This document shows positions 4,161 through 20,307 of a stretch of 35,387 nucleotides of DNA, one piece after another (the first letter of the stretch is position 1; each line of letters begins with the position of its first letter). The position numbers and the translations under genes were made by a program. The notes under the pieces were generated by a model, which was given only the letters and a program-made list of their open reading frames with translations, was not told where the DNA came from and did not search any database. The DNA is from Ignavibacteria bacterium (GTDB lineage Bacteria > Bacteroidota > Ignavibacteria > Ch128b): the NCBI GenBank assembly GCA_026415235.1, contig JAOAHM010000036.1, positions 1 through 35,387 on the forward strand. The letters are read 5' to 3'.

Positions 4161-6544
4161 TTGAAAAACTTCTTTCTCAACTTTCAAATAACTATTTAGA
4201 ATTATTGACAAAATTTGGTTATGGTTTATGTATTTGCGATGACAAGTTGAATGTTCTATGGTTCAATGAGAATTTTTTATCGTGGTTCTCGCCGAAAGAA
4301 AATCAAACACTCCATTCTTTAATTGAAGAAAAAGAAAAAATTGAAAATTCAATTATTTACAATTCAATCAATCTTGAAAATCTTAATCGAATTGAAGTAC
4401 AAAAACCGTCATCAAGAAAATGGTTTATGTTGAATGTGAGTGAATTGACCTCAGAAGAAACGGGCAATAAATATTTATTCTTTTTGTTAGATGATACAAC
4501 TGAACGAAAACAAGTTTTCGAAAATTTCATTTCTCAACTCGAAATTTTGGATAATGTAGAAGACGGAATTTACTCTACTGATTTTGATAATAAAATAATC
4601 TATTGGAATAAAGGTGCTGAAAAAATTTATGGATATTCTTCACAAGAAGTAAGTGGAAAAATTGTTAATAAAGACTTCATACTTTATGAACCTCTTGATG
4701 CAGAAACACAAATTCAAATTGTTCAAGAACTTGAAAAATATAGAACATATTATTTTAGAAGAAAAGAATTTCGGAAAGATGGCTATGAAATTTGGATTGA
4801 AGGTAACGTTACTCTTATTAGCGATACAGGTGATAAACCAATTGGTTTAATATACATAGTTAGAGATATAACAGGAAAATTAATTTCTGAAACACTAAAC
4901 ACTCTTAACGCAAATCTTCAAAAATCGTTACGAGAAATTACCGCTAATCTTTTAGCCGATACAAACTTTTCAGATATTTTATTGCAATTCACAAAAAAAT
5001 GTAAAGAGTTAACTGAGAGTTCCGTTTGTGCTGTTATTAAATCTACCGAACATAAATCAGAGATTATTGAAGTTCAATCAGATAAAAGTCTAAGTGAAGA
5101 CGAATTAATCAACTTAATTTCAAATGCCTTTGCAATTCGAAGTTGGCTTGAACTCAACAAAACAAATTTAGTTAGCTTTGAGAATTCGGCACCAGAAATT
5201 ATTGAAATGGTTAAGAGAATTTTTAAAGTAAGAGAATTTATTATTGCACCAGTAATCATTAAAAACAATATTGATTATTTTATCATCATAGGTTCAGATA
5301 ACTATCTCCTGACAAAATATAAAACAGAGATTCTTAATTCATTTGCATCTTTGCTTTCTTTTATTATTTCATATTTTGATAAAAAAATTCTTCAAGAAAC
5401 ACTCGAAGATAAAATAAAGCAAATTCAAAAATTCGAGTTAACGAGCAATTTAATTACTGGTATAGTTCACGACTTCAAAAATCTTCTAAATGGAATACAA
5501 ACAATTGTAGATTTAATCAAAACCAAACATTCAGATTCAATTCCACAAAAACTTATCGAAGAGTTAGAAGTTTTACTGACACATGGATTAGAATTATCAA
5601 AGAGTTTACTCGAAATTGGAAAACCACTCAAACCAGCAAAAACAAAATTTAAACTTCAAAAACTTCTGAACGAGATTTATAATCTTGCTATCAGAATTTG
5701 TCCTCCCAATATAAAAATCGAAAAAGATTATGACGATTTACCTGAAGTTTATGCTGATTATTCTCAACTACATCAAGTTTTTATGAATTTAATTGTCAAT
5801 GCAAGAGATGCTATGCCAGACGGAGGTACAATTAAAATTTACACCGAATTAATTCTTGTAACCGAAAAGGATTTCATCATAAATCCCAAAATTAAACCTG
5901 GGACATATATTGTAATAAACATTTCCGATACAGGTATAGGCATACCAAAAGAAAACATCCAGAAAATTTTTGAACCATATTTCACAACAAAAGACACAAA
6001 AAGTGGAACTGGATTAGGACTTTTTATTTCTCAAAACATTATCAACAGACATAACGGATTTATTGATGTAGAAAGCGAAATTGGGAAAGGAACAACCTTC
6101 AAAGTGCATTTGCCAATTTCTTTTGAAGAAGATACAATCAAAGATGTTGAAGTTCATCAAGTGATAAAATCAAAACCGACTATTTTACTTGTTGACGATG
6201 AAGTTTCAATTCGTAGTCTCCTTTCGGAAATGCTCAGCTTTCAAAATTTCGATGTACTGGAAGCTGCTTCTTGCGACGAAGCAATAAATTTATTTGAAAA
6301 ACATAAAGACGAGATTGATTTAATAGTAATGGATTATTTCTTAAAAGACTCTACAAGTGTTGATGCAATTCGTTGGGTGAAAGATAAGAATCCTAATCTT
6401 CCAATCTTTGTAGCTACTGGATTATTAGAAGAAAAATTGATTGAAAAATTAAATGAATTGAAAGTTGATAAGATAATTGAAAAACCCTATGAATTTGATA
6501 CACTTCTGACAAGTATAAATAACTACATTAAAATTGCCACTTAA
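4157..6544 (+). CDS. Hybrid sensor histidine kinase (PAS-PAS-GAF-HisKA-HATPase-REC)
   Basis: 795 residues with no membrane segment, so probably a cytoplasmic sensor. Residues ~10-115 look like a degenerate PAS. ~125-240 is a clear PAS (GIYSTDFDNKIIYWNKGAEK, later RDITG). ~265-405 is GAF-like. The H-box is IVHDFKNLLNGI with His438; the N-box is FMNLIVNARDAMPDGG (Asn547); the G-boxes are DTGIGIP (591-597) and GTGLGLFIS (617-625). A C-terminal receiver (~673-790) has phospho-acceptor Asp726 (IVMDYF) and the KPYEF lysine. It starts inside the stop region of the sigma54 regulator, so the two are co-translated. It ends overlapping by four bases with the oppositely oriented REC-DHp gene. The signal is unknown; the GAF and PAS domains suggest a small internal ligand. 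Confidence 0.9.
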   Translation: MIEKLLSQLSNNYLELLTKFGYGLCICDDKLNVLWFNENFLSWFSPKENQTLHSLIEEKEKIENSIIYNSINLENLNRIEVQKPSSRKWFMLNVSELTSEETGNKYLFFLLDDTTERKQVFENFISQLEILDNVEDGIYSTDFDNKIIYWNKGAEKIYGYSSQEVSGKIVNKDFILYEPLDAETQIQIVQELEKYRTYYFRRKEFRKDGYEIWIEGNVTLISDTGDKPIGLIYIVRDITGKLISETLNTLNANLQKSLREITANLLADTNFSDILLQFTKKCKELTESSVCAVIKSTEHKSEIIEVQSDKSLSEDELINLISNAFAIRSWLELNKTNLVSFENSAPEIIEMVKRIFKVREFIIAPVIIKNNIDYFIIIGSDNYLLTKYKTEILNSFASLLSFIISYFDKKILQETLEDKIKQIQKFELTSNLITGIVHDFKNLLNGIQTIVDLIKTKHSDSIPQKLIEELEVLLTHGLELSKSLLEIGKPLKPAKTKFKLQKLLNEIYNLAIRICPPNIKIEKDYDDLPEVYADYSQLHQVFMNLIVNARDAMPDGGTIKIYTELILVTEKDFIINPKIKPGTYIVINISDTGIGIPKENIQKIFEPYFTTKDTKSGTGLGLFISQNIINRHNGFIDVESEIGKGTTFKVHLPISFEEDTIKDVEVHQVIKSKPTILLVDDEVSIRSLLSEMLSFQNFDVLEAASCDEAINLFEKHKDEIDLIVMDYFLKDSTSVDAIRWVKDKNPNLPIFVATGLLEEKLIEKLNELKVDKIIEKPYEFDTLLTSINNYIKIAT

Positions 6545-7245
6545 CTATCAAAAATTTCTTTTTTCAAATCATCAAAACTTACCATACGAACATCTTTCTC
6601 TTTGTCATACTCCTCTTTACCTTCTGTATGTTTGATTGCATTTAGTTTATTAAGGACATTTGTGATTTTCTTAATTCCTTCTTCAATATAGTTTAATTTT
6701 TCTGATATAAGTTCTTTATTCAAATCTTGTTTTTGAAGTTCTCGCTTGATTGCATTAACAGCAAGAGACATTATTGTGAGAGGTTGTTTAATCTCATGAT
6801 TAGCTGTAAAAACAGTTGCTTCGAAGATTTGATATTTTTCATGCTGAATTGCTTTCTTCTTCATTTCAGAGTAGCGTAGTGCTGAATTAACTCTTGCAAT
6901 CAATTCCATTTTATCAAAGGGCTTTTTGATATAATCAAAGGCTCCCACTCTCAAACCTTCTGCTACATCTCGTCCATCAACTTTTGCAGTTACAAGAATT
7001 ATAGGTATATCTTTAGTATCTTCATCATTGGTTAAAATTTTACACACTTCATAACCATCCATTCCTGGCATCATTATATCTAAAAGAATTAAATCAGGCT
7101 TTTCAGCTTTAGCTTTTTCAATTCCTTCAGGTCCAGAAAATGCTGTTAAGACAAGAAATTTTTCAGCTTGTAATCTTGATTGTAAATAATAAACATTATC
7201 TGGCCTATCGTCTATAACCAAAATTCTATATGCATCTTTAACCAT
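6541..7245 (-). CDS. Response regulator with receiver and DHp-like domain, no kinase ATPase domain
   Basis: 234 residues. Residues 1-125 are a canonical receiver: IDDRPDN, phospho-acceptor Asp56 (LILLDIMMPGMDGYEV), Thr86 and Lys108 (KKPFDK). Residues ~138-205 resemble a histidine-kinase dimerisation helix pair with an H-box (TANHEIKQPLTIM, His150), but the chain stops after a short charged tail at 234 and there is no N- or G-box ATPase domain. Such REC-DHp proteins can act as phosphotransfer or dimeric scaffolds, similar in principle to Spo0B/Hpt-like proteins; that role is inferred. It is the last gene of the pilus operon, 10 bases after the CheY-like gene, and it overlaps the hybrid kinase stop codon by four bases head to head. 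It may connect that kinase with the pilus machinery. Confidence 0.85.
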   Translation of the reverse strand: MVKDAYRILVIDDRPDNVYYLQSRLQAEKFLVLTAFSGPEGIEKAKAEKPDLILLDIMMPGMDGYEVCKILTNDEDTKDIPIILVTAKVDGRDVAEGLRVGAFDYIKKPFDKMELIARVNSALRYSEMKKKAIQHEKYQIFEATVFTANHEIKQPLTIMSLAVNAIKRELQKQDLNKELISEKLNYIEEGIKKITNVLNKLNAIKHTEGKEEYDKEKDVRMVSFDDLKKEIFDS

Positions 7246-7255
7246 AGTTTATTTC

Positions 7256-7624
7256 CTATGAGTGAAGAACTTTTTGAATTGTGATTAATAACTCATCAAG
7301 GTCATAAGGTTTTGGTAGAAAGTCATTGGCTCCTAATTTTTTGGCTAGTACAGCATTTTCAACATTAGCATTAGCAGTCAATACAATTATTTTTCCAGGA
7401 TATTCTTTGCTTCTTAACTCTTTCAAAATTTCAAAACCATCCACTTCAGGCATTTTCAAATCAAGTAAAATCAAATCATAAAATTCGTTTTGTAGTCGTG
7501 TTGCTGCTTCGCGACTATCATTTATCACTTCAACTTCATATCCCACAGAACTTAGTTCTTCTCTCAAAATTTTTGTGAGAGCAATATCATCATCAATGAT
7601 TAGAATTGATTCCAACTTTGGCAC
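7256..7624 (-). CDS. Single-domain response regulator (CheY-like)
   Basis: 122 residues, a receiver domain only. Acidic pocket IIDDDIA, phospho-acceptor Asp55 (LILLDLKMP), conserved Thr83 (IVLTANA) and Lys105 (LPKPYD) are all present, so it should be phosphorylated. With no output domain it is expected to act by protein-protein contact or as a phosphorelay intermediate, as PilG/PilH do in twitching motility. It lies 12 bases after the secretin gene and 10 bases before the REC-DHp gene, within the pilus operon. Its closest in-window kin are the receivers of the sigma54 regulator and of the neighbouring REC-DHp protein. Confidence 0.9.
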   Translation of the reverse strand: MPKLESILIIDDDIALTKILREELSSVGYEVEVINDSREAATRLQNEFYDLILLDLKMPEVDGFEILKELRSKEYPGKIIVLTANANVENAVLAKKLGANDFLPKPYDLDELLITIQKVLHS

Positions 7625-7636
7625 AAAAATACCCTT

Positions 7637-8866
7637 TCATTTTTCTTCAACTGGATTCATTTGATAAATTTTAATTTGATTGTGATAATTTTCTCGAGTT
7701 TGTTCAATTAGATTTAAATTATTCTTTCTCGTAGTAAATCTTTCTTTGAGTGGTGGAACAAGTTTCGCCTTCAAAACAATAATCAACTCTTTTTTAGAAT
7801 AAGTTTTTTTATCAAAACCTGTTAGATAACGAATACCAAATACCCACCAAGGTAAATCTTTAAGAATTGGTATTCCACTTCGCTCAACTTTTTCCTCAGT
7901 AATATACAAACCACCGATAACAGTTTCTTCACCATCAACAAGTAAAACATCTGTTTTAGCTTTTGTTTTCTTTATCTCTGTTGAAATTTGTCCTGGGATT
8001 GCATTACTACGCTCAGCTTCTAAATCAATTAAAATGTAATTCTTTCCATCCTCTTCAAATACATAAGGAGTAACTCTAATTATTGTACCTGTAGAATAAA
8101 ATCTTTCAACAGTATTTCCAGCAAAATCTTTTTCTCGTGTTGAAAAGTCGGCACCAACTTGGATTTCACCACGAACTCTATCTCGAACAGTAATTTGTGG
8201 ACTTGCAATCACTTCACCTAATTGATTCTGTTCGAAGAAATTAAATAAGAAGGTTGCTCTTCCTAAGAAGTCACCCATTTGACTTTGAGCATAAAGACCT
8301 AAATTAAAATTCTTTGTCTGATCAGTAGTTTGTTGCGGATTTAAATTAAAAATGTTTGGGTCAACTTGACCAAGTTGACCAGCAAGGTCTACATCTTTAC
8401 TTGAAAGTAACCACTTCCAATTCATTCCCAGCTCTTTTGATTTAGCCACATCAAGTTCAAAGAATATAGCCGATATATTTACTTCTCGAGTAGATAAATC
8501 AACTCCTTTCATTGCATCAGGAACTGGAGGTTTCTCTGCTTTTCTTGGTAAAATTTTTATGTACTCTTCTGTCTCAGTGAATTCGAGATTATTGTATTTT
8601 AAAATCAGCATTAATGCTCTATACCAATTCATTTGAATGATATCAATTCCAATAGGATCTGTAATATCTTCACTTAAAACTATTATCTTGTTAATAAACT
8701 GTTTACTCATCTTGCTTAGCATTTGCATAGCTTGATTGAAAGGCATCGAACCTGAAATCGAAACAAGTTCCTCAGGTGAACTCGAAAGCATTTTTTGAAA
8801 TTCTCTTTGACTTTGTGCTGAACACAAACTTAGAGTAATTATGAGAATGAAAATTAATTTCTTCAT
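7637..8866 (-). CDS. Secretin of a type IV pilus / type II secretion-like system
   Basis: 409 residues with a Sec signal peptide (MKKLIFILIITLSLCSA). Residues ~40-110 look like an N0/STN domain (IDIIQMNWYRALMLILK, then EYIKILP). From ~126 onward is the secretin core: the ASPQITVRD segment (221-229), strands around VTPYVF, and the signature VLLVDGEETVIGGLY followed by GIPILKDLPWW and ELIIVLKAKLV. It would form the outer-membrane ring through which the fibre or substrate passes. It is short compared with PilQ/GspD, with only one clear periplasmic N-domain besides the secretin domain, and it has no AMIN domain. The start ATG overlaps the previous stop (ATGA), with AAGGAG 8 bases upstream. No separate pilotin gene is visible. 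Confidence 0.9.
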   Translation of the reverse strand: MKKLIFILIITLSLCSAQSQREFQKMLSSSPEELVSISGSMPFNQAMQMLSKMSKQFINKIIVLSEDITDPIGIDIIQMNWYRALMLILKYNNLEFTETEEYIKILPRKAEKPPVPDAMKGVDLSTREVNISAIFFELDVAKSKELGMNWKWLLSSKDVDLAGQLGQVDPNIFNLNPQQTTDQTKNFNLGLYAQSQMGDFLGRATFLFNFFEQNQLGEVIASPQITVRDRVRGEIQVGADFSTREKDFAGNTVERFYSTGTIIRVTPYVFEEDGKNYILIDLEAERSNAIPGQISTEIKKTKAKTDVLLVDGEETVIGGLYITEEKVERSGIPILKDLPWWVFGIRYLTGFDKKTYSKKELIIVLKAKLVPPLKERFTTRKNNLNLIEQTRENYHNQIKIYQMNPVEEK

Positions 8867-9756
8867 TTTTTAAACTCCTTAATATTTGCAGCTTTAAGTT
8901 TGAGTGAAACTCTTTCAATAATACCTCCTCGGTTAAGAAGAAATTCACATTGCTGACGCTCATAATCAATTTTTGTAAGATAACCAAGATAAACTGGATC
9001 ACCCTCTGATAATGTATAGGAATTTCCATTTTTATCCATGATAAAAACTGCATCAGGAATAATTGCAAGTAAAGTTGCACCATCCACTTCCAACAAAGCA
9101 TCGTAGTTTGGTGGAATGTCTGGTTGGATTAATGGATAGAAAAGGTCGCTAACAAATTTAATTTCTTTTGGTTTTATTTGTTCATAGTTGAGGGCAAGAT
9201 TAGAATCGGCGGTGAAATATGATTCCAGATTTATATCAAATTCAACTTGATATCGTATCTCACCTTTACCAGTTGTAAGAGTTGCATTTCTTAAATTAAG
9301 AGAAGTTATTTTGTAAAGTTTTTTAGATTTCTCGAGTTCATAAATTAATTTGAAAACATCAATAAATTCACCTTGACCACTTATGGAGAAATAATCAACC
9401 GAAGCAGCACCAAAATTTTCTGTTTTGTCGTATTCAATATCAACTCTTGTATATTTTGAGAAACTCTTTGTTATGTTGAGTATATCGTTATATGTATCTG
9501 TGATTGATTGCCTAAATGGAATAGCCTTTGCCATGTTATAAAGAATTGAGTCAATTTTTTCAGATTCTTTCTGTAACGAGTCATACATGGCAGTAAGAGT
9601 TGAAACATCTAAGAATTGTTTGTTGAGATTTTCCAGCTCCAGTTGTTTTCTTTTTATTTGCTTCGGTTGGTAACCGATAACATAATAACCTCCTGCAGAA
9701 ATCAACAAAATTAAGAATAGGAGGAGTATGAGAGCATTGCGAGTTGTATTACTCAT
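8863..9756 (-). CDS. PilO-like inner-membrane protein fused to a PilP-like domain
   Basis: 297 residues: a short cytoplasmic tail, one membrane helix (~8-27), a coiled-coil segment (~30-75) and a ferredoxin-like PilO domain (~85-182, with ISGQGEFIDVFKLIYELEK and ITSLNLRNATL as typical strands). After a linker, residues ~200-290 carry a second beta-rich domain (LLAIIPDAVFIMDKNGNSYT, EGDPVYLGYL, FLLNRGGIIERVSLKL) that resembles the PilP/GspC homology region, which docks on the secretin. In standard systems PilO and PilP are separate proteins. Position between PilM-PilN and the secretin matches the pilMNOPQ order. It begins immediately after the PilM-PilN stop codon. The PilO part is confident; the PilP assignment is from pattern and position. 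Confidence 0.75.
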   Translation of the reverse strand: MSNTTRNALILLLFLILLISAGGYYVIGYQPKQIKRKQLELENLNKQFLDVSTLTAMYDSLQKESEKIDSILYNMAKAIPFRQSITDTYNDILNITKSFSKYTRVDIEYDKTENFGAASVDYFSISGQGEFIDVFKLIYELEKSKKLYKITSLNLRNATLTTGKGEIRYQVEFDINLESYFTADSNLALNYEQIKPKEIKFVSDLFYPLIQPDIPPNYDALLEVDGATLLAIIPDAVFIMDKNGNSYTLSEGDPVYLGYLTKIDYERQQCEFLLNRGGIIERVSLKLKAANIKEFKK

Positions 9757-11289
9757 TTATTGTACTCCTCTATAACCGTATTTATCTGGTTTAAGATTTA
9801 TTTCGAACCGATTGACCTCTCTTTCTCGTAACTCCTGACTAATCATACTTTTTAGCAAAGCTTTATCAAGATGATCTGAAAAATCTGGTATTGTGTATTT
9901 GTTAATACCAATTCCAAAAATTTTAACTCCTTCATTACTTGCAGCAATACTTGTTAACCAAATTCTCCTTCGTTGTGGTTGAAACTCTTGTATTTTCATT
10001 AAAATTTCAGTCCATCTCTCAGCACCTAAAATTAAAGTATCTATAGTTTGTTGGATTCTTCTTCCTGCTTCAATTCTATTCGAAAGTTGAGTTACTCTAT
10101 TTACAAGTTCGGCATTTTCGGCTATCAGAAGTTGTTTACTTTGAATTTCTGTTTGTAGTACTTGTAACTTTTTATGATTTGTTATATACCTCTGAGTGAA
10201 GAAGGCAACTGTGAGAAAGATTAAAATTAACAATACATATCCAACAGGATCGAGTTTGAAAATTTTTTGCGCTTCGATTACATCCAAAGGAAGTAGATTA
10301 ACAACTGGGGTTTTTGATTTGTCTTTTAATAAGAAGAAAAATATTGGTGCAATGCAAAAAGCATAAACAGGAATTTGATTCTTTTTATCTTCGCTTAATT
10401 CTGAAAGATCAAGTTCATCAAATTTAATTACTTCTAAATCAGCAAGTGGAAAACTACCATAGAAAGTTAATTGAACAGTCGATTCAGTTACTTCACCAGC
10501 AAGAAAAATTTTATCAATCTCAGAAATTTGTGCAACATCCATTTCGAGATTTATCTTACTTATGATAATATCATGAAAACCAACAGTTTGAACTCCAATA
10601 CCAAGATAACTCGATATATGTTTGATTGTTTTATTTGATATGAAAATTATTCTACTTGAATCGATTCCAACATGAAGAATTAAATAGTTTTTATCTTCCT
10701 GAATATTGTATTTATTCAAAACATAACCAGCAAGACACAAATCGCCAGCAGAGATGAATGGTATTCGAGGCATTCTCATTTTCCAGAATCGTGCAAATTG
10801 ACGAATCTGGTCTAACACAGGAAATTCTTCATTAATATAAGCACTTAGATAAGTGTCATTATAATATTTATAGTAGCGTAAATTCTTTTCGTCAATGGAA
10901 GCAAGTTTGGTTTCAAGCCATTTATCTATGATAAATTGTTTTACTTCTTTATCCTTACCTTTGGGCACATTCGGGATAAGTAAATAAGAAACTTGTGGCT
11001 CAGTTACTACTGGCACAAATACGATGTCCTTGACATTTTTAACTTTATTAATAAGGACATTTGATAACATTGGTTCTTCAAGGACATCTTCGGTCTCTTC
11101 AGTGGGCTCAAAGAGTATTGTGTCAGAATCAATATCAAGTTCGGATTTTTCCTGACCAAAGAATTGATATGGTGAACCTTTTAAACCATAAGTCACAACA
11201 TCTTCTAACTTCAATCCTTTAGAAGTTTTAGAAATGATTGCGACTTTGGTTTCGGGTCCATCAACGAAGATTCCAACATATTTTTTCAT
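9757..11289 (-). CDS. PilM-PilN fusion protein (GspL-like layout)
   Basis: 510 residues. The first ~325 form an actin-like PilM/GspL-type ATPase fold: YVGIFVDGPETKVAII resembles the phosphate-1 segment, ILHVGIDSSRIIFI (204-217) phosphate-2, and IDKIFLAGEV an adenosine-like segment. At 330-341 the chain runs straight into VNLLPLDVIEAQ, which is the N-terminal INLLP motif by which PilN normally binds PilM. Then comes one membrane helix (~349-366), a coiled coil (~370-415) and a PilN-like ferredoxin domain (WLTSIAASNEGVKIFGIG). Together these give the layout of GspL: cytoplasmic actin-like part, membrane helix, periplasmic domain. It would link the assembly ATPases to the PilO-PilP protein and the secretin. 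The start overlaps the PilT stop by four bases. Confidence 0.85.
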   Translation of the reverse strand: MKKYVGIFVDGPETKVAIISKTSKGLKLEDVVTYGLKGSPYQFFGQEKSELDIDSDTILFEPTEETEDVLEEPMLSNVLINKVKNVKDIVFVPVVTEPQVSYLLIPNVPKGKDKEVKQFIIDKWLETKLASIDEKNLRYYKYYNDTYLSAYINEEFPVLDQIRQFARFWKMRMPRIPFISAGDLCLAGYVLNKYNIQEDKNYLILHVGIDSSRIIFISNKTIKHISSYLGIGVQTVGFHDIIISKINLEMDVAQISEIDKIFLAGEVTESTVQLTFYGSFPLADLEVIKFDELDLSELSEDKKNQIPVYAFCIAPIFFFLLKDKSKTPVVNLLPLDVIEAQKIFKLDPVGYVLLILIFLTVAFFTQRYITNHKKLQVLQTEIQSKQLLIAENAELVNRVTQLSNRIEAGRRIQQTIDTLILGAERWTEILMKIQEFQPQRRRIWLTSIAASNEGVKIFGIGINKYTIPDFSDHLDKALLKSMISQELREREVNRFEINLKPDKYGYRGVQ

Positions 11290-12554
11290 ATTTTACTCGT
11301 TAATAGTTGTTGGATCCTTGCTTTGTTGTTCGCAAAAGCAATTGCAGTTTCGTAAGTGATTTTTCTTAATTTGAATAGTCGTGCTAAATCCTGTTCCATT
11401 GTATGCATACCGAACTCGCTTCCTTGATGAATCATTTGATAAATTTCACTTGTATTGTTGTTTTTGATTGCAGCTCTCACTGAAGGTGTGACTACTAAAA
11501 CTTCTTTGGCAAGTGTTCTCTTTCCATCTACTGTAGGAACTAACTTTTGCGAAACAATGCATCTCAAAACATCTGCTAAACGCATTCTAACTCTTTCTTG
11601 CTCGTGCACATCTGTTTCACCAATTATTCTATCTATTGTCTCAACTGCTGATGATGTATGAAGTGTTGAAAATACTTTGTGACCACTATCTGTAACATCA
11701 AGAGCAGCTACGATTGTCTCTGGATCTCTTAACTCTCCAATTACAATGATGTCGGGATCTTGTCTTAATGCTTGTATTGTTCCTTCTTTGAAAGATAAAA
11801 CATCTCTTCCAACTTCTCGATGCCTGACCAAACATCTTTTCGATTGATGAACATATTCAACCGGTGAAGAGATGATAATGATGTGTGCATCACAAGTTCG
11901 ATTATTTTCATCAATGATTGCATCAAGCGTAGTAGATTTACCTGAACCAGTTATACCTGTAATCAGAATCAATCCTTCTTTCATGTAGTTTAGATTCATC
12001 AGTTGCGTCACATATGGATGAAAACCAAGTTCTGCAAATGGTCGTAGTTGAGATAAAATTGCTCTGCAGTTTAAGGAAAGTTCATCAAGCTCAAAGTATG
12101 CATCAGCACGATAGCGATAAACTCTTAAATATGGGTGTGTTTCTTTTATTTCAATGGAAAAGTCTAAATTTCTTTTTGTAATTAAAAATTCAATTTGTTT
12201 TTCGCTTAAGATGTTAAGAATAAGAATGCTTGCTTCTGTTGAATTGAATTCTGGTAAATTAGGGATTGGTTTTTTGTTACCATGAATTCTCATCCAAAAA
12301 CGATTTAAACTTCCTGGCCCACCAAAATCCAAATCCGATGCTTCAACTTTATGCATTTCAAAAAGCAAACTCTCCAAAAAATTTCTCATTGCTTCTCGTT
12401 TCTTGTTATCCAATCCTTCAACAAAACTTTTTAGATATAATACTTTATCTATTCCCTTAATGTATTCTGGAACTAATTTGAGTCCTTCACCTGTAATTTC
12501 TTTTACTTGTTTTGTTAGTGAAGAGAATGCGTCTGAATTAATATCTATGAACAT
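11286..12554 (-). CDS. PilT-like ATPase (type IV pilus retraction family)
   Basis: 422 residues. The C-terminal RecA core has Walker A GITGSGKST (200-208), a His box STLHTSS (296-302) and Walker B IIVIGELRD (269-277). The following region (RMRLADVLRCIVSQKLV, GMHTMEQDLARLF) is PilT-specific. The Asp box that reads EDPIEF in PilT is SSPVEY here (229-234), and the AIRNLIRE motif is degenerate (VRAAIKNN). The GspE-like neighbour keeps EDPVEY, so the loss is specific. The N-terminal ~150 residues are longer than in PilT. PilT powers fibre retraction; with these changes the protein may be a slower, regulatory or PilU-like subunit. It lies 2 bases after gspE and overlaps the next gene by ATGA. Confidence 0.85.
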   Translation of the reverse strand: MFIDINSDAFSSLTKQVKEITGEGLKLVPEYIKGIDKVLYLKSFVEGLDNKKREAMRNFLESLLFEMHKVEASDLDFGGPGSLNRFWMRIHGNKKPIPNLPEFNSTEASILILNILSEKQIEFLITKRNLDFSIEIKETHPYLRVYRYRADAYFELDELSLNCRAILSQLRPFAELGFHPYVTQLMNLNYMKEGLILITGITGSGKSTTLDAIIDENNRTCDAHIIIISSPVEYVHQSKRCLVRHREVGRDVLSFKEGTIQALRQDPDIIVIGELRDPETIVAALDVTDSGHKVFSTLHTSSAVETIDRIIGETDVHEQERVRMRLADVLRCIVSQKLVPTVDGKRTLAKEVLVVTPSVRAAIKNNNTSEIYQMIHQGSEFGMHTMEQDLARLFKLRKITYETAIAFANNKARIQQLLTSKI

Positions 12555-12556
12555 AA

Positions 12557-14344
12557 TTAGTCTTCCGTTGTTGATGCAACTACTTCTTCAATTGTTGTTA
12601 ATCCAGCTTTTACTCGTAAAAAGCCAGATTCTCTTAGAGTCAACATTCCTTCTTTTTTAGCTTGCATTCGAATTGCTTCTTCATCAATTTCAGTTCCTGA
12701 TTTGACTATCAATCTTCTAATATCTCTACTGAAATACAAAGCTTCGTGAATTGCCATTCTACCTTTGTAACCAGTATTTGAACAAGCAGGACAACCAACA
12801 GCTTCATAAAAAGTTGTTTCTTTTACATCCTTTTCGCTCATACCTGCAGCCAAAGCAATCTCCTTATCAAAATTTTTTGCAACTCTTTTACATTTCTCAC
12901 ACAACTTTCTAATCAATCTTTGAGCTACAATAATGTTAATTGCATAAGCTATTAGGAATGGTTCTACACCCATTTTGAATAATCGTGAAATTGCGCTTGG
13001 TGCGTCATTTGTGTGAAGCGTTGAAAATGTTAAGTGTCCTGTATTTGCAAGTTTTATAGCGATTTCAGCTGTTTCTTTATCACGCATCTCACCAACGAGA
13101 ACAATATCAGGGTCATGTCGGAGAATTGCACGAAGTGCTTGTTCAAAATCCATCTTCGGTCCAATTTTCAATTGTCGAGCACCTTTAATAACATACTCAA
13201 CTGGATCTTCTACAGTTAAAACATTAACAGTAGGATCAATAACTTGATAAAGTGCAGCTATTAATGTTGTACTTTTTCCTGAACCTGTAGGACCTGTTAA
13301 TATAACCATTCCTTGCGGTTTAGAAATTGCTTTCATGAAAGCGTCATAAGCTGGACCATCAAAACCAATTTTTCTTATATCTGTAATAACTTTTCTATCA
13401 TCAAGAATTCGAATTACACATGATTCAAATTTTGAACTCAACTCAGTTCCAACCATTGGAAGAATAGAAACACGAAAACGAATTATATGTCCATCAATAT
13501 TTCTTTGAATGAATCCATCTTGCGCTTTTTCTCTCTCAAAACGATCTAATCCTCTTGCTCTATCTTTAATAACAGAAAGTACTGCTTCAGGATATGTATT
13601 TTCTTGAACATACCAGAGGGTTAGATTACCATCAATCCTAAAATGAATTTCTGTTCTCATTCCACTCTGAGGAACAAAATGAATATCACTGGCACCCCTT
13701 CTTACACCTTCAACCAATGCACCTTCAACTAAATTTATTAATGTACTTTTTTGGATCTCTGCCTCAAGTGCAGCTTCATCTATTCCTGCTTCTTGAGTTG
13801 TTTCAACTTGTAATTGTTCAGGAACTTCCTCTAACATTTTTAGGAAAATATTTTCTGGAGGAAGTATCTTATTTAGAACTTCATCAAAATCTTTTTTCTT
13901 GATGAAGATGACTTCGTATTTTCTGAATCCAAGACTTGCCGGAAGTTGATGTGTTAAACGATTTGTAGGATCAATTGCTGCAATTATAATTTTATCTTTT
14001 TGATTTGGATCAAATTTTATTGGTACAATCTTAGCTTCAATACAAAGATTTTTAACTTCTTCTGGTGATTTGTTAAGTAACTCTCTAATCTTTTCAGTTT
14101 CTGTCTCAGTCAATGGATATTTTTCTGGTGTATAGATATCAAAACGATAAACTGCAGCAACTTCTTCAAAAATCGTATCGTGATCAAACTTAAAATCCTG
14201 AACTAAAATTTGCGCAAGGTTTCGTCTTGCTCTATCATTCTTTTTAATCTGTAAAGCTTTTTCTAAGGTATTTATATCTATCAAACCTTTTCTAAGTAAC
14301 CAATATCCTACTTTATCAGTTTGTTCTAATGACTCAATTGCCAT
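12557..14344 (-). CDS. GspE/PilB-family assembly ATPase
   Basis: 595 residues, the usual length. Residues ~10-160 are the MshEN/T2SSE N-terminal domain (GYWLLRKGLIDINTLEKAL), which in relatives can bind cyclic di-GMP. The core has GASDIHF (217-223), Walker A GPTGSGKSTT (351-360), Asp box EDPVEY (379-384), Walker B DIVLVGEMRD (413-422), His box STLHTND (441-447) and a zinc tetracysteine C482-x2-C485 plus C518-x2-C521. All catalytic motifs are intact, so this is the likely motor for fibre extension or secretion, acting on the cytoplasmic face of the GspF platform. It is one base downstream of gspF and two bases upstream of the PilT-like gene. Confidence 0.95.
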   Translation of the reverse strand: MAIESLEQTDKVGYWLLRKGLIDINTLEKALQIKKNDRARRNLAQILVQDFKFDHDTIFEEVAAVYRFDIYTPEKYPLTETETEKIRELLNKSPEEVKNLCIEAKIVPIKFDPNQKDKIIIAAIDPTNRLTHQLPASLGFRKYEVIFIKKKDFDEVLNKILPPENIFLKMLEEVPEQLQVETTQEAGIDEAALEAEIQKSTLINLVEGALVEGVRRGASDIHFVPQSGMRTEIHFRIDGNLTLWYVQENTYPEAVLSVIKDRARGLDRFEREKAQDGFIQRNIDGHIIRFRVSILPMVGTELSSKFESCVIRILDDRKVITDIRKIGFDGPAYDAFMKAISKPQGMVILTGPTGSGKSTTLIAALYQVIDPTVNVLTVEDPVEYVIKGARQLKIGPKMDFEQALRAILRHDPDIVLVGEMRDKETAEIAIKLANTGHLTFSTLHTNDAPSAISRLFKMGVEPFLIAYAINIIVAQRLIRKLCEKCKRVAKNFDKEIALAAGMSEKDVKETTFYEAVGCPACSNTGYKGRMAIHEALYFSRDIRRLIVKSGTEIDEEAIRMQAKKEGMLTLRESGFLRVKAGLTTIEEVVASTTED

Positions 14345-14345
14345 A

Positions 14346-15719
14346 TCAGAATAACCCTTGAATTAAATTAATGAATGACATCCCAGGATATTTCGGACGA
14401 ATTGTTGCTGTTTCAGCTGAGATGAGCGTAAGTGCAGTTATAACTATCATGATGAACATAGCAATTGCTAACTGAATCGCTTCAATCAAAAATTTAAGTT
14501 TATGAGTTGTCTCGCTTTCATAATAATTAGCAATTTGCAATGCAACATTTTTCACCGTTCCTGTTTCTTCACCAGAATGAAATCTCGATATAGCTGTTTT
14601 AGTAAAAACACCAGCAGCTTCAAAAGCATCGGTCAATCCTTTACCCTCACGAATCATTATCGGAATAGCTACATTTTTAATTCTATCTTCAAAATATTTA
14701 TTACCTGTTGCTTCAGCAGCAATTCGTATTGGTTCAATATTTTCAGCAGAACCTGTATAGAGCGAATAAAATACTCGACAAAAAATTTCAATGATAGATT
14801 TATGAATTAAATTTCCAATTACAGGAAGTTTCAATAAATATTTATGAAGATTAACTTTTCCTTTCGGTGTTTGATAATAATAGAATAATAATACCACAGG
14901 AATTGCCATTAATAAGAGTATGAACAGAAAATTATTTTGTAAGAAATAACTTAGCTTTAATGTTGCTGCGGTTAACGGTGGAAGTTCAATATCGAATCTC
15001 AAAAACAATTCAGCAGTTGCTGGAAATACTTTTGCAACATAATAAATAACAGTCAAGATTAAAGCAATAACTGTTATGGTCGGAGTAACTAATGCACTTC
15101 TAAGATTTTTTCTAAATTCTTGATTTCTCTCTAAAAATTTTGCCGTTGCAGAATAAATTTCTGCCATATTACCACTTTTAGAAGCAAGTCCTAACATATA
15201 AGCTGTAAATTTTCCTAAAACATGTTCATATCTTCTGAATACTTTTTCACTGTCCTCACCTCGTTTTAAATCATTATTAATTTCTTTTAATGCGTCTCTT
15301 AATGCTTTATTTGTTACATCATTTATCATTAGCTGAAGTATTTCACCATAGGACATTTTCTCTCTTAATAAATCAGCGCTTATTCTAACGAAAGAAACAA
15401 TTTCAGAAGTTGGTGGTTTGGTTTGTAAGTCAAATAATTTTTTTCGTACATAAATTACTTCATAACCGAGTTTAATTAATGCTTGTTCAACTTCAGAAGA
15501 TGCATAAGCTTTCTGTTCACCGACAATTGGTTTACTCAATCCAGGTTTTCTTGCTTTATAAATAAATGTAGATTTTTTTTCAATTGAACGTAGTCTTAAT
15601 TTATTCTTCTCAACAATCTCTTTAATTTTTTGTCTTGCAGCGATGATGTTACTCGAATGAACAATCCCAATAACTGTCTTTCCCGTTGGTGATATTGCGT
15701 TAAATCTATACTCAGGCAT
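14346..15719 (-). CDS. GspF/PilC inner-membrane platform protein
   Basis: 457 residues. Two GspF (T2SSF) helical bundles, ~104-200 (KMSYGEILQL, ANDLKRGE-like NNDLKRGEDSEKVF, LASKSGNMAEIY) and ~305-400 (REGKGLTDAFEAAGVFTKTA, GEETGTVKNVALQIANYYE), alternate with membrane helices at ~209-229, 262-282 and 414-434. Residues 1-47 are the usual N-terminal YRFNAISPTGK module. An extra segment (~68-95, ASSEVEQALIKLGYEVIYV) looks like a partial second copy of that module. The protein is the platform that the assembly ATPase turns to add pilins. It is the first gene of the eight-gene machinery operon and has its own promoter. Confidence 0.95.
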   Translation of the reverse strand: MPEYRFNAISPTGKTVIGIVHSSNIIAARQKIKEIVEKNKLRLRSIEKKSTFIYKARKPGLSKPIVGEQKAYASSEVEQALIKLGYEVIYVRKKLFDLQTKPPTSEIVSFVRISADLLREKMSYGEILQLMINDVTNKALRDALKEINNDLKRGEDSEKVFRRYEHVLGKFTAYMLGLASKSGNMAEIYSATAKFLERNQEFRKNLRSALVTPTITVIALILTVIYYVAKVFPATAELFLRFDIELPPLTAATLKLSYFLQNNFLFILLLMAIPVVLLFYYYQTPKGKVNLHKYLLKLPVIGNLIHKSIIEIFCRVFYSLYTGSAENIEPIRIAAEATGNKYFEDRIKNVAIPIMIREGKGLTDAFEAAGVFTKTAISRFHSGEETGTVKNVALQIANYYESETTHKLKFLIEAIQLAIAMFIMIVITALTLISAETATIRPKYPGMSFINLIQGLF

Positions 15720-15941: not shown

Positions 15942-16325
15942 TTAGTTATTAATTGTCACAGTAATATTGTCAGGTGTAACAACAGCGGTTGCTCTTACTT
16001 TATTCGTTCCATCGTTACCGGTTTCATTTCCAGTTCCAACAATTGTCACAACAGTAGCTCCAACAGTAGCAGTGTATGTTCCGTTACCAGTTTTAGTTAA
16101 TGATGGTGGAATTGTGAAGCCAGTAAATGAATTACCACCGCCACCAAGAGCAGTTGGTTTACGATAATATTGTTGAGCAAAAGCTCCAATGTTATTTAAA
16201 TCGGCAATGACAGCATCTCTATTTGCACTTTGTGCACTGGTGCTGGCAAGATTAATGCCGACCACTATTGCAATACCAACAATAATTACTCCAATGACGA
16301 TTAATAGAAGTTGTTGTTGACCCAT
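15942..16325 (-). CDS. Small type IV pilin-like protein, copy 1
   Basis: 127 residues. It starts MGQQQ and goes straight into a hydrophobic helix (LLLIVIGVIIVGIAIVVGI, 6-24), followed by an amphipathic stretch (ASTSAQSANRDAVIADLNNI) as in the alpha-1 spine of type IV pilins, the QQYYRKP segment, a GGGG turn (61-64) and a Thr/Asn/Gly/Val-rich beta domain. No Cys is present. There is essentially no leader: at most Met-Gly precedes the possible mature residue, and Glu5 is absent. Its twin at 16524-16907 is identical at 118 of 127 residues. A good ribosome site (AAAGGAG) precedes the ATG. Likely the major fibre subunit with its twin; inferred from size, tandem copies, strong ribosome sites and private terminators. 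Confidence 0.75.
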   Translation of the reverse strand: MGQQQLLLIVIGVIIVGIAIVVGINLASTSAQSANRDAVIADLNNIGAFAQQYYRKPTALGGGGNSFTGFTIPPSLTKTGNGTYTATVGATVVTIVGTGNETGNDGTNKVRATAVVTPDNITVTINN

Positions 16326-16366
16326 AGTTGTACTCCTTTATTTTTTTCATTTTCTGTTTTTTTGTT

Positions 16367-16387
16367 GAGAATTCTACTGGAATTCTC
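16367..16387 (-). promoter_or_regulatory. Perfect inverted repeat in the leader of pilin copy 1
   Basis: GAGAATTC (16367-16374), TACTG, GAATTCTC (16380-16387): 8-bp arms, 5-base loop, ~40 bases before the pilin ATG. It could be an mRNA 5' stabilising hairpin or an operator. No convincing promoter boxes are seen nearby; transcription may start further upstream or continue through the terminator of copy 2. Confidence 0.35.
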
Positions 16388-16490
16388 TCTCATGTGCAAA
16401 ATTGCAAAATATAAATATAAAATCAAATATTTTTTAAGGAAAATTTTAATTTAAGTTAAAACTCAAGATTAAACTTTTTTAAAATTAAGA

Positions 16491-16513
16491 ATAAAAAACC
16501 CCTCAAAGAGGGG
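16491..16513 (-). terminator. Terminator after pilin copy 2
   Basis: CCCCTC (16499-16504), AAA, GAGGGG (16508-16513); read on the minus strand the stem is followed by TTTTTTAT. It lies 10 bases after the stop of the gene ending at 16524. Confidence 0.9.
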
Positions 16514-16523
16514 TTTTGAGAAT

Positions 16524-16907
16524 TTAATTAAGAATTGTAACAGTAATATTTGTAGGTGTAACAACAGCTTGGGCACGAACTTTATTAGTTCCATCATTTC
16601 CTGTTTCATTACCAGTTCCAATAATTGTAACGACGGTTGCTCCAACAGTAGCAGTGTAGGTACCATTACCTGTTTTAGTTAAACTTGGTGGAATAGTCCA
16701 TCCCGTGAAAGAATTACCTCCACCACCCATTGTTGTTGGTTTTCGATAGTACTGTTGGGCGTATGCACCAATATTATTTAGGTCTGCAATTACGGCGTCT
16801 CTATTTGCACTTTGAGCGCTGGTGCTTGCTAATTGAATTCCCACAACAATAGCAATACCAACGATAATGACGCCAATTACGATTAAAAGAAGTTGTTGTT
16901 GACCCAT
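16524..16907 (-). CDS. Small type IV pilin-like protein, copy 2
   Basis: 127 residues, a twin of the gene at 15942-16325 with nine amino-acid differences (positions 25, 49, 59, 60, 70, 96, 113, 119, 126), most of them in the globular part or conservative. It has the same near-absent leader (MGQQQ), hydrophobic helix 6-24 and GGGG turn. The DNA of the two genes differs at many synonymous positions, including Ser codons of different families (AGT versus TCA in TIPPSL), so this is an old pair kept similar by selection, not a fresh duplication. It has the strongest ribosome site in the locus (AAAGGAGG) and the best promoter, so high expression is likely. Probably a major fibre subunit. Confidence 0.75.
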   Translation of the reverse strand: MGQQQLLLIVIGVIIVGIAIVVGIQLASTSAQSANRDAVIADLNNIGAYAQQYYRKPTTMGGGGNSFTGWTIPPSLTKTGNGTYTATVGATVVTIIGTGNETGNDGTNKVRAQAVVTPTNITVTILN

Positions 16908-16947
16908 AATTTCCTCCTTTCTGATTTAGATTTTCTTTTTCTTACGC

Positions 16948-16976
16948 AATATAATCTGTTACAGAAATTAAGTCAA
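16948..16976 (-). promoter_or_regulatory. Strong promoter for pilin copy 2
   Basis: On the minus strand TTGACT (16971-16976), exactly 17 bases, TATATT (16948-16953): five of six at both boxes. The -35 lies just after the stop of the upstream minor-pilin gene (16979). Transcription would start near 16941, ~34 bases before the ATG. Confidence 0.7.
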
Positions 16977-16978
16977 TG

Positions 16979-18106
16979 CTACTCATAAAAATGCAAGGTT
17001 TTCACTTGAACTATATTACCCGAAGTACTTACTGGCCAAGCTTGTTTTGCTAAAAGTTCATTTGCTGGTTTATAATAAACAGTTACATTACCATTCATTT
17101 GAACTGAGTTTTTTGAAACTACATTACCATAAATTCTATTATTACCATTCAATACAACATTACCATTTGCGTACAACTGAGCATTCAATGTCACATTACC
17201 GTTTACAATTAAATCATTTTTTGAGTAAATACCAATATTACTAACTGTTGGATCTGGTGAATTTATAGTTACATTACCACTGATTATTACATTGCCTAAG
17301 CTTACAAAAATCCCGTATCCTGTTACATTTCCACTTATTGAAAGGTCACCAGTAACATAAATTATTTTTGGATTTTCTTTCGTTCCAAGAGTAATATTTC
17401 CACTGAACGATTTATTTCCATAATAAATATCCGTGGCTTTGTTTTTTATATCATTTGGATCTATGTCTGGAATATTAACTTGTTGAGTTTGAAAATGAAC
17501 AGGTAGATTAGTTGGATTTGAAACTGGAGTAATTCTCGTGTTAAGAGCATTAGCTGGATTTGATTGTGCCGAGCCGGTGTAAGTTAAAAAACCATCAATA
17601 TCATTATTACCATTCATTGAGAAGTTACCGTTGACATGTACATTAGCATTTAATCCATTGCCAGCATTTGTTATTGTCACCCCACCATTCAAATTTAAAT
17701 TTCTACCACTTAAAACAGCATATCTCATAAAAGGTGGCAATCCTCCGCTTCCCATTTTTTCAATACTAAAATAAGCTTCCGAAATTTTTGTAACCCCTTC
17801 ATACCTTGCTATCACCTCCGCTTTTACAAAAGGAGCTGAATTAATAAAGGTATCAATTAATCTATAACTTGCTATCCCACCCATCACATTTTCAGTTATT
17901 TGGTTTATCACTCTATATGTTGTATCAGAAAGCAATTTTATCTTTAAAACATCAATCATAGAATTTGCAATATTTTTTGCATAAACATCTCTATAATAAT
18001 TTGAAGTTGATGTTCCAGCATCTGAAGTAGAACGGTTAATCTGAATTGAAACTATACCAAAAGTTAAAATTGCTGAGAATAATATTATTAAAATTGTTCT
18101 TCCCAT
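16979..18106 (-). CDS. PilX-like minor pilin with a glycine-asparagine beta-helix head
   Basis: 375 residues. A membrane helix begins at residue 4 (MGRTILIILFSAILTFGIV) with no leader. Residues ~25-115 form a PilX-like region shared with the next gene (YR, KNIANSMIDVLKIKLLSDTTYRVIN, MGG). Residues ~130-355 contain about ten N/S-G-N motifs (VNGNFSMNGNND, SISGNVTG, IVNGNVTLN, YANGNVVLNGNN, MNGNVTVY) at irregular intervals of ~10-25 residues. This is the pattern of a right-handed beta-helix or bactofilin-like fold, known in some large pilus-tip or PilX-like proteins. Likely a minor subunit carrying a rod-like head, perhaps at the fibre tip. AAAGGAG overlaps the 12-base gap from the upstream paralogue. 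Confidence 0.65.
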   Translation of the reverse strand: MGRTILIILFSAILTFGIVSIQINRSTSDAGTSTSNYYRDVYAKNIANSMIDVLKIKLLSDTTYRVINQITENVMGGIASYRLIDTFINSAPFVKAEVIARYEGVTKISEAYFSIEKMGSGGLPPFMRYAVLSGRNLNLNGGVTITNAGNGLNANVHVNGNFSMNGNNDIDGFLTYTGSAQSNPANALNTRITPVSNPTNLPVHFQTQQVNIPDIDPNDIKNKATDIYYGNKSFSGNITLGTKENPKIIYVTGDLSISGNVTGYGIFVSLGNVIISGNVTINSPDPTVSNIGIYSKNDLIVNGNVTLNAQLYANGNVVLNGNNRIYGNVVSKNSVQMNGNVTVYYKPANELLAKQAWPVSTSGNIVQVKTLHFYE

Positions 18107-18118
18107 TTTTAACTCCTT

Positions 18119-19234
18119 TCATTCATAGATATACAATAGGTTAAGGCTTCTTTTACCTCCTCCAATTCCACTTGAACCACCGTATTGAGAGGCAAAGAAA
18201 GTCGCTTCTTTGACCGCTGCAGAAGAATAATATATCTTATGATCATTATTTCCTTTACATTCTTTCACCATTTCTAAATTAGGTGAAAGTAATATCAATC
18301 CACCATAAATATCAAGATGAAGATGAAACATATAATCACCAATTATCAAACCCTTAAACGGTCTTGTTGCTCTCAATTGAATTACACGAGTATTACCAGC
18401 TGGATTATGAACTACAAAAATACCCGAACTCTCTAATCCACCTAAATTAATTTTTACTTCGTCATCATTTGGAAGTTCTAAATATGTTACTCCACGGAGT
18501 GGAAGTTTTATTTTGTTATCATCAGTAACATATTGACTTCCATTAACACCACTTTGAGCAATCTTTTTCAATGTCCCTTCTGGAAATCCAAGGATTTTGT
18601 CGGGACTATCGGGAAATTTTCCGCCCCAATTATAATTTTGCTCAACCACTATTGGATTTTCTGGAAACTTTGGAGGATAATCTACCCCATTAACGGTTCC
18701 ACCTATCATTGCACCTTGAAGATTTGTAAATGAAGTTCCAGATGAAACACCATAAATCCCCTTATTCGGAATTACATTTCCGTTCAAGTCATGATCTCGT
18801 CCATCAATTATCATATCGCTTATTGTCTTGTTCAAACTCGCGTTTGCAGTTACTGCTCCACGCAAGGTTGGTGGAACAAATCCACCTGTAAATTTAACAT
18901 AAGCTATAGTTTCTTTGTTTAGTCCTTCATATGTGGAATTAATTCTTATTTGAATAACGCTATCTTTACCAATCACAGTATCCTTGATAGTAAATTTCGA
19001 AGTTCCACCCATCAAGCTAAGAGTTTGTTCATTTAAAACACGATAACTTGTACTATCAGCCAATCGAGACATTAAAATATCCAAAGTGCTTAACGAAATG
19101 TTTCGAACATAACTAATTCTGTAATTTTTAACTGCTTCAGTTTCACTATGTCTTGATGAACTCATCGTAGAGACAGAATAGATTCCAAAAATGATTAAAG
19201 CACCAGATAAAATTATGATAACTGCACGTCCCAA
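18119..19234 (-). CDS. PilX-like minor pilin, paralogue of the beta-helix gene
   Basis: 371 residues. The N-terminus (MGRAVIIILSGALIIFGIY) and the next ~110 residues match the downstream paralogue in layout: YRISYVRNISLSTLDILMSRLADSTSYRVLNE, then MGG and an ETIAYVKF strand. The C-terminal ~250 residues differ: no regular NGN repeats, but Gly/Asn-rich segments (IIDGRDHDLNGNVIPNKGIY, GVTYLELPNDDEVKINLGG, FKGLIIGDYMF) suggest an irregular beta structure like that of DUF-type 'pilus assembly PilX' C-terminal domains. Both paralogues end in a Tyr-Glu (LLYIYE and LHFYE). It is 11 bases after the PilW-like gene. Probable minor pilin with a specialised head; partner unknown. Confidence 0.6.
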   Translation of the reverse strand: MGRAVIIILSGALIIFGIYSVSTMSSSRHSETEAVKNYRISYVRNISLSTLDILMSRLADSTSYRVLNEQTLSLMGGTSKFTIKDTVIGKDSVIQIRINSTYEGLNKETIAYVKFTGGFVPPTLRGAVTANASLNKTISDMIIDGRDHDLNGNVIPNKGIYGVSSGTSFTNLQGAMIGGTVNGVDYPPKFPENPIVVEQNYNWGGKFPDSPDKILGFPEGTLKKIAQSGVNGSQYVTDDNKIKLPLRGVTYLELPNDDEVKINLGGLESSGIFVVHNPAGNTRVIQLRATRPFKGLIIGDYMFHLHLDIYGGLILLSPNLEMVKECKGNNDHKIYYSSAAVKEATFFASQYGGSSGIGGGKRSLNLLYIYE

Positions 19235-19245
19235 ATTAGCATCTC

Positions 19246-19818
19246 CTATAAATTTTTTGGTCTAATTATCTTTTTTATTTCAGCACCAGGATAATAACCT
19301 TCTATTGGATAAATCGATTCAACTCTTATGTAATATCCTATTGATTTGATTCTATCTCTTTGTGTTTGGCTTGAAAGAGAAGCATAATTCATCGTCGTGT
19401 TTGCTGAATCAAGATAAGTAAATTTAAAATCAACTACACCAAGATTCGAGCCTCGACGTGGTTGGTTATTAAGAACTCTATACAAAATTCTGTCTCTTGG
19501 ATTTGGAGTAGAGGTTAACTCACTCGTTGGACCAAGGACATATTCTAAGGTATCAACCTTTCCATTATTATCTAAATCGCTTTGAAAAACTAATCTTGTT
19601 GAGTCAGCGAAAAGAATTTTTGAGCCCGATACTCGATACCCTACCTTGTATAAATCATAGTCTAAAACTTCGGCAATTTCTTTAACATTCATCTGAGCAA
19701 TATTTGCATTAGTAATTTCTCTTGAAGAGCTCTGGATATAAAAAGTTATTCCGATTATCATTAATATCAAAATTGCTCCGATGAATGTTGCTGTGATAAT
19801 ATCTAATAATGTCGACAT
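19246..19818 (-). CDS. PilW/GspJ-like minor pilin
   Basis: 190 residues. It begins MSTLLDIITATFIGAILILMI: after loss of the initiator Met, S-T-L-L-D aligns with the mature pilin start F-T-L-I-E, with Asp replacing Glu5. The body resembles PilW/GspJ minor pilins: MNVKEIAEVLDYDLYKVGYRVSG, then a calcium-type DLDNNGKVDTL segment (81-91; D-x-D/N-x-D/G pattern) followed by a beta-rich C-terminal part that describes a GVVDFKFTYLD strand. There is no Sec or type IV leader. It begins 3 bases after the preceding stop, so translation is coupled. Probably a part of the priming/tip complex. Confidence 0.65.
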   Translation of the reverse strand: MSTLLDIITATFIGAILILMIIGITFYIQSSSREITNANIAQMNVKEIAEVLDYDLYKVGYRVSGSKILFADSTRLVFQSDLDNNGKVDTLEYVLGPTSELTSTPNPRDRILYRVLNNQPRRGSNLGVVDFKFTYLDSANTTMNYASLSSQTQRDRIKSIGYYIRVESIYPIEGYYPGAEIKKIIRPKNL

Positions 19819-19821
19819 AGT

Positions 19822-20307
19822 TTAATAAGTAACTACTCTGTACATTTTAATTGTGTCTGTGATGAAATTGTTTCTAACAAAGACTTCTATTCTTTTAGCA
19901 AAAGTTCGAGTATTACTTGTAATATCAGGATTATTTACATTTACATAAAACACTCTCACTGACGAAATAAAGTTTCCAAGTCTTGAAAGATTTTCACTTC
20001 TTTGATAACCATTGTAATCGTCAATATCATCATATTTTGTATAATCATTTTCGCCAAGATCAGGTCCTAATAAATTAACTGGTGTTAAAGAATCAGGTGT
20101 AGAGATAACATTTCCAATAGATTTTTCATCAAAATCTTTAATTGTAATTTCATCAATTAGTGATTGAGCTATTGCACTTCCAGTAAGTAGAGCTTCGTTT
20201 GCAACAGCTAAAGCAAATCGTGAAGTAGTTGACCTATATACAGTTAAGATAAATATTGTAAAAAGTAATAAGCCAACTGTTACAAGTAATGTTTGTCCAG
20301 TATTCAT
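19822..20307 (-). CDS. PilV/GspI-like minor pilin
   Basis: 161 residues. The hydrophobic helix starts at ~7 (MNTGQTLLVTVGLLLFTIFILTVYRS). It is followed by a helix rich in small residues (ALAVANEALLTGSAIAQSLIDEI), like the alpha-1 C half of PilV-type proteins, and a small beta domain with FISSVRVFYV and AKRIEVFVRN strands. There is no leader, no Glu5 and no Cys. It is the first gene of the four minor-pilin genes (20307 to 16979), all 3-12 bases apart. Assignment as PilV-like rests on order and shape; sequence similarity by eye is weak. Confidence 0.55.
   Translation of the reverse strand: MNTGQTLLVTVGLLLFTIFILTVYRSTTSRFALAVANEALLTGSAIAQSLIDEITIKDFDEKSIGNVISTPDSLTPVNLLGPDLGENDYTKYDDIDDYNGYQRSENLSRLGNFISSVRVFYVNVNNPDITSNTRTFAKRIEVFVRNNFITDTIKMYRVVTY

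Follow-up and report, generated by a model that had tools for sequence, protein, structure and literature searches.

A pilus-type gene cluster with six leaderless pilin candidates

The stretch of DNA analyzed here (the window; 35,387 nucleotides from Ignavibacteria bacterium, GenBank assembly GCA_026415235.1, contig JAOAHM010000036.1) spans a contig (G000:C67) in its entirety; the draft genome to which it belongs measures 2.14 Mb and is 89% complete. It carries a compact minus-strand cluster that runs from position 20307 down to 7637 and comprises six pilin-like genes, followed by genes for PilC, PilB, a PilT-family protein, a PilM/N-like protein, a PilO/P-like protein and a secretin. A previous reading of the window from its letters (the sequence-only reading) had pointed out that the six pilin-like proteins lack a prepilin leader and that no prepilin peptidase is encoded nearby; the coordinates and N termini that it gave for the six open reading frames (ORFs) were correct. 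Both peculiarities are the subject of this analysis, and the features of the cluster are as follows.

15942..16325, minus strand: MGQ1, leaderless major pilin candidate of 127 amino acids (MGQQQLLLIVIG...), proposed from an AlphaFold2 model and co-occurrence with PilC
16524..16907, minus strand: MGQ2, second MGQ copy with 93% identity to MGQ1
16979..18106, minus strand: MGR1, large leaderless minor pilin candidate in the GspK position, a role suggested by size and gene order
18119..19234, minus strand: MGR2, MGR1 paralogue with a TTG start
19246..19818, minus strand: MST, leaderless minor pilin candidate of 190 residues in the GspJ/PilW position, with a conserved Asp6
19822..20307, minus strand: MNT, leaderless minor pilin candidate in the GspI/PilV position
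14346..15719, minus strand: PilC/GspF inner-membrane platform (PF00482, E = 2e-28; NF052607, E = 2e-40)
12557..14344, minus strand: PilB/GspE extension ATPase (PF00437, E = 3e-103; TIGR02538, 437.6 bits)
11286..12554, minus strand: PilT-family retraction ATPase (TIGR01420, 321.3 bits versus a cut-off of 319.1)
9757..11289, minus strand: putative PilM/PilN-like (GspL-like) protein, a syntenic family
8863..9756, minus strand: putative PilO/PilP-like single-span protein, named from synteny and position only
7637..8866, minus strand: secretin of the PilQ/GspD type (PF00263, E = 7e-24; TIGR02515, E = 1e-26)
7256..7624, minus strand: response regulator adjoining the cluster, kept across the family and presumably linked to the pilus
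6541..7245, minus strand: second response regulator, kept across the family, with a likewise presumed pilus link

Pfam and NCBIfam profiles identified the core traits of a type IV filament system, namely, a PilB/GspE-family ATPase, a PilC/GspF platform and a secretin. A PilT retraction ATPase, which is the type IVa pilus trait, was recognized by TIGR01420 with a score over the cut-off. The window proteins all scored under the cut-offs of the curated GspD, GspE and GspF equivalog models. The sequence-only reading had stated that all other core parts lie beside the pilins; this held for the ATPases, the platform and the secretin, whereas only gene position and remote similarity underlie the names PilM/N and PilO/P. 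The PilM/N-like homologue on a second cassette of the same genome matched the PilN model PF05137 (E = 3e-5). MGR1 (16979-18106) showed a weak likeness to bactofilin/DUF2572 in its C-terminal region. It contains Gly/Asn-rich repeats that weakly resemble bactofilin, DUF2572 and MinC_C and may form a β-solenoid tip domain on the GspK-like subunit.

The six genes leave no room for a leader peptide

Known class III leaders comprise 6 to 26 residues and end in Gly (PMC4471445). Upstream of the short starts, the in-frame room before a stop codon amounts to 4 codons for MGQ1, 6 for MGQ2, 4 for MGR1, 9 for MGR2, 1 for MST and 11 for MNT, and none of the six genes has an ATG, GTG or TTG codon between that stop and the short start. 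Because no start codon precedes the short one after the upstream stop, a classical leader of 6 to 26 residues cannot be encoded from a normal start in any of the six genes. The short starts are accompanied by a GGAG-type ribosome-binding site in four of the six cases, and the start of MST lies 3 bases past the stop of MNT. The class III signal peptide, a trait of the type IV filament superfamily, is thus missing from the subunits, as the sequence-only reading had claimed. That reading had also named upstream in-frame starts in homologues as evidence that would speak against it. Such alternative starts are impossible in the window and were few among the homologues, whose apparently longer ORFs hold the short-form start internally; an upstream in-frame stop was at most 10 codons away in 161 of 180 MGQ genes.

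The short N termini are conserved

Of 41 related genomes, 24 contained matches to MGQ1, and the alignments nearly always began at query residue 1 or 2. Nearly all matches begin with M-G-[QTS]-Q-Q and are preceded by a Shine-Dalgarno motif, usually with a stop just upstream. M1, G2, Q4 and Q5 were invariant in an alignment of 59 diverse MGQ members, and among the 180 MGQ genes residue 2 was Gly in 175 and residue 5 was Gln in 176. The contig scan was seeded with the MG[QTS]QQ pattern and is alone no proof of N-terminal conservation, but the whole-genome searches are free of this bias. The three minor families (about 28 members each) are equally short at the N terminus, so that the survey of related genomes found short N termini conserved in all four families. 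M1 and Q5 were invariant in the aligned MNT set, the M-G start was conserved in the MGR family, and the MST family kept an acidic residue, mostly Asp at position 6, in keeping with the earlier remark that only the 190-residue protein can be aligned to the F-T-L-I-E motif of classical prepilins. Further families of the phylum have the same operon, short N termini included. Glu5 in the hydrophobic stretch, another superfamily trait, is lacking: MGQ and MNT carry Gln5, and MST carries the conserved Asp. Gln5 is near-invariant in MGQ and MNT, two unrelated-looking families, and takes the position of the canonical Glu5 when the numbering includes Met1.

No prepilin peptidase is detected in most genomes that carry the system

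The Pfam models PF01478 and PF06750 and a phylum-specific PilD profile gave no match in the window's genome, which extends the earlier remark on the absence of a nearby prepilin peptidase to the genome as a whole. An A24 prepilin peptidase, also a superfamily trait, was therefore not detected. PF01478 and PF06750 likewise had no match in two congeners (99% and 100% complete) or in nearly all relatives, and the PF01478 search was positive in 12 of 14 control genomes. Among 197 genomes of the class, MGQ was found in 105 and PilC in 105, with both present in 102 (Fisher test, 3e-48). PilD occurred in only 8 of these genomes, all MGQ-bearing, and N_methyl prepilins occurred in 13; MGQ and PilC without PilD were found in 94 genomes, 91 of which also lacked an N_methyl prepilin. 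The high-quality genomes of the class gave similar counts (MGQ in 95/178 and PilD in 7/178), and a phylum-wide sample of 248 genomes contained MGQ in 87, PilD in 35 and both in 10. We considered that Pfam could have overlooked PilD and rejected this on the basis of PF06750 and the phylum profile. The latter recovered the same 8 genomes (E < 1e-50) and returned only short weak matches in six more, mostly to a Cys-rich segment and not over the catalytic part. An alternative peptidase in the operon was rejected as well, since no conserved multi-span membrane protein besides PilC was found in 25 loci. One canonical GFSLTEL prepilin without a PilD match was observed in a 99% complete genome (L067, G035:C6, 9518-9955) and is possibly an orphan or relic.

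The genomes of the class that possess PilD constituted an internal control. N_methyl prepilins were present in all 8 of them, versus 5 of the 189 others (Fisher test, 3e-11). The PilD locus was read in 8 MGQ-bearing genomes, and in 7 of these, canonical prepilins of the ...GFS[LM]TEL type (...GFSLTELMVVLVIIGIL...) were located beside PilD, usually accompanied by another PilB; in the eighth PilD locus (G371), the motif scan flagged no prepilin. Where PilD loci were read, PilD was encoded in a locus separate from the MGQ locus, and the MGQ loci of PilD-type genomes (L048 of G023, L055 of G017 and L158 of G371) were leaderless and gave no PilD match. In a PilB tree, the eight PilBs of the PilD loci formed one clade (support, 99) apart from the MGQ-locus PilBs. 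The position of two further PilB paralogues, from f12 genomes, was unsure, and a single origin of the MGQ-locus PilBs had low support (55). The prepilins of the PilD loci, the leaderless MGQ loci and the split of the PilBs indicate that PilD and leaders are present or absent together, while the MGQ system is without both.

Pilin identity and alternative explanations

AlphaFold2 predicted a helix (residues 3 to 55) followed by four strands for MGQ1 (mean pLDDT, 90) and a helix (residues 2 to 57) followed by a β-sheet for MST (pLDDT, 89). Both predicted models have the lollipop arrangement known from type IV pilins. The MGQ profile had seven matches among PDB sequences, most of them pilins (geopilin, PilE1 and GspG; E = 0.035 to 1.1). 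MST gave a weak profile match to the Thermus type IV-like pilin TTHA1219 (E = 0.015) and a weak similarity to canonical prepilin profiles (P = 0.0009; probability, 23%). Compared with mature pilins, the hydrophobic helix leaves 1 to 3 residues to spare, with an ambiguous exact register, so that the coded protein would start close to the mature N terminus. It is mainly synteny, co-occurrence and predicted topology that argue for the six proteins being pilins.

Several observations weigh against leaderless pilins that are assembled without processing. Foldseek searches of the PDB gave no significant match for MGQ1 (top entry, a truncated PilA with E = 1.4) or for MST, for which no pilin was in the lead; in the structural comparison proposed in the sequence-only reading, the predicted layout of MGQ and MST agreed with the pilin fold of the superfamily, but Foldseek returned no significant match. 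MGQ, MNT and MGR gave no significant match when compared with profiles of the phylum's canonical prepilins. Most of the genomes are metagenome assembled, although many have completeness ratings above 95% and some consist of a single contig, and a non-A24 protease encoded elsewhere in the genome may act on the subunits, with no conserved candidate in the cluster. The absence of a significant sequence or Foldseek match of the six proteins to known pilins would suit single-span envelope proteins that merely accompany the motor while the true pilins lie unrecognized elsewhere. We regard this as very unlikely, given the helix-plus-sheet topology predicted for MGQ and MST, the position of duplicated small MGQ genes next to PilC in most loci, the co-occurrence of MGQ and PilC (102/105), the recurrent I-J-K-like gene order and the lack of N_methyl prepilins in nearly all MGQ genomes.

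A PilD- or TadV-type peptidase could be too divergent to detect or could have been lost in assembly gaps, as the 89% completeness of the window's genome would permit. However, the congeners with 99% and 100% completeness are also without PilD, both Pfam models and the phylum-specific profile agree on its absence, the PF01478 search works in 12/14 control genomes, and the same PilD-less pattern is seen in 94 genomes; this explanation is largely refuted and retains hardly any probability. A very short Met-Gly (or M-x-x-G) leader, cut by an unrecognized peptidase that replaces PilD, would agree with the invariant Gly2 of the MGQ alignment, which is common in MGR too, with the Gly at position 4 of several MNT proteins, and with the ungapped helix register to GspG, which allows up to three extra residues. 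Nevertheless, we consider it improbable: a fixed Gly at position -1 is missing in many MST and MNT homologues (MQFLLD, MNHLLD, MNSSQ and MHSNQ), PilC is the one conserved multi-span membrane protein in the 25 loci, and Gly2 also matches the preference of methionine aminopeptidase. The sequence-only reading had left the choice between a cut Met-Gly leader and simple Met removal; without an A24 peptidase, a multi-span protein besides PilC or a consistent Gly at -1, the evidence favors the absence of PilD-type cleavage.

A proposed PilD-free filament system

We therefore favor, with a probability of roughly 0.74, a type IV filament system whose pilins are translated essentially mature and are assembled without PilD. 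The system appears to come nearest to the retractile type IVa pili and has minor subunits of the GspI/J/K kind. Comparative genomics speaks for a conserved PilD-free system and in this way supports the earlier view that it is functional rather than decayed. The subunits would insert N-in as inner-membrane signal anchors that have no charged leader, and would at most lose Met1 to methionine aminopeptidase if their second residue is small, as it is in MGQ. PilC and PilB would then draw the subunits straight into the filament, which may be primed by the MNT-MST-MGR (I-J-K-like) set and would be exposed at the cell surface. Neither cleavage by a PilD-family enzyme nor N-methylation by PilD would take place; PilD also N-methylates the pilins of canonical systems, and this modification is expected to be missing here, too. 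The presence of PilT suggests that the filament is retracted. Speculatively, Gln5 of MGQ and MNT could be a different solution to the contact between the N terminus and Glu5. It seems reasonably likely that a lineage extending beyond one class builds filaments from subunits that are unprocessed past Met1, are unmethylated by PilD and have Gln in place of Glu5.

The system shares with type IVa pili the extension and retraction ATPases, the platform, the secretin, a PilM/N-like protein and a small major subunit with a long N-terminal helix but differs by the absence of a leader, PilD and the N_methyl signature and by Gln5 instead of Glu5 in the major pilin. It resembles type II secretion systems (T2SS) in the GspL-like PilM/N fusion, the GspI/J/K-like order of minor subunits and the secretin; unlike those, it has a PilT-family ATPase, no leader and no GspO, and its secretin scores higher as PilQ than as GspD. 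GspO activity has been called essential in bacteria and archaea, and the mitochondrial T2SS (miT2SS) of jakobids and relatives is GspO-free (PMC10128026). The miT2SS is the only other GspO-free system that we met in the literature searched. Another protease probably cuts the long N-terminal extension of the miT2SS GspG, and no minor pilins exist there, whereas the window's system is bacterial and has minor pilins and no presequence. Cytophaga hutchinsonii, from a related phylum, has a T2SS-like cluster of similarly divergent T2SS/T4P genes but possesses a Peptidase_A24 gene, CHU_3197 (PMC5553014). A survey of type IV filaments describes MSH loci that lack a prepilin peptidase, yet their genomes encode one with another system (PMC6668835); the window's genome shows no peptidase elsewhere. 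For Melioribacter roseus, pilT, pilQ, pilB and pilC were reported without pilA or pilD, and the authors judged the set incomplete, leaderless pilins having gone unrecognized (PMC3534657). These genes very likely belong to the same system as that of the window. The open PMC literature that we searched yielded no earlier account of a leaderless system without PilD in a bacterium.

Type IV pili, T2SS, competence pili and archaella are regarded as both defined by and dependent on the class III leader and PilD, and it is by the leader that annotation tools recognize pilins. A widespread PilD-free system would explain the seemingly missing pilin genes in Ignavibacteria-type genomes. If our interpretation is true, leader cleavage, held to be essential for filament assembly, is dispensable, the leader is in principle not needed for membrane insertion or assembly gating, and the system offers an evolutionary "after" state for comparison with canonical systems. 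It is directly testable in cultured relatives, of which Stygiobacter electus 09-Me carries the locus (L075).

Second cassette and other observations

The same genome harbors a second cassette (L061, G000:C33, 9797-15890) with homologues of MGQ, PilM/N, PilO/P, secretin, MNT, MST and MGR. This cassette has no PilB or PilC of its own, and only one PilC was found in the whole genome, so that a single motor seems to serve both filament cassettes. Relatives show this arrangement as well (L042, L044, L045 and L047). A fourth, diverged MGQ paralogue with an MGQTQ start and 59% identity to MGQ1 is located away from both clusters (L062, G000:C22, 3954-4340). Finally, the ORF at positions 10-519 of the window ends in a tail (...SGIYLYKLQAGNFTSTKKMLLIK) that by eye resembles a type IX secretion C-terminal sorting domain.

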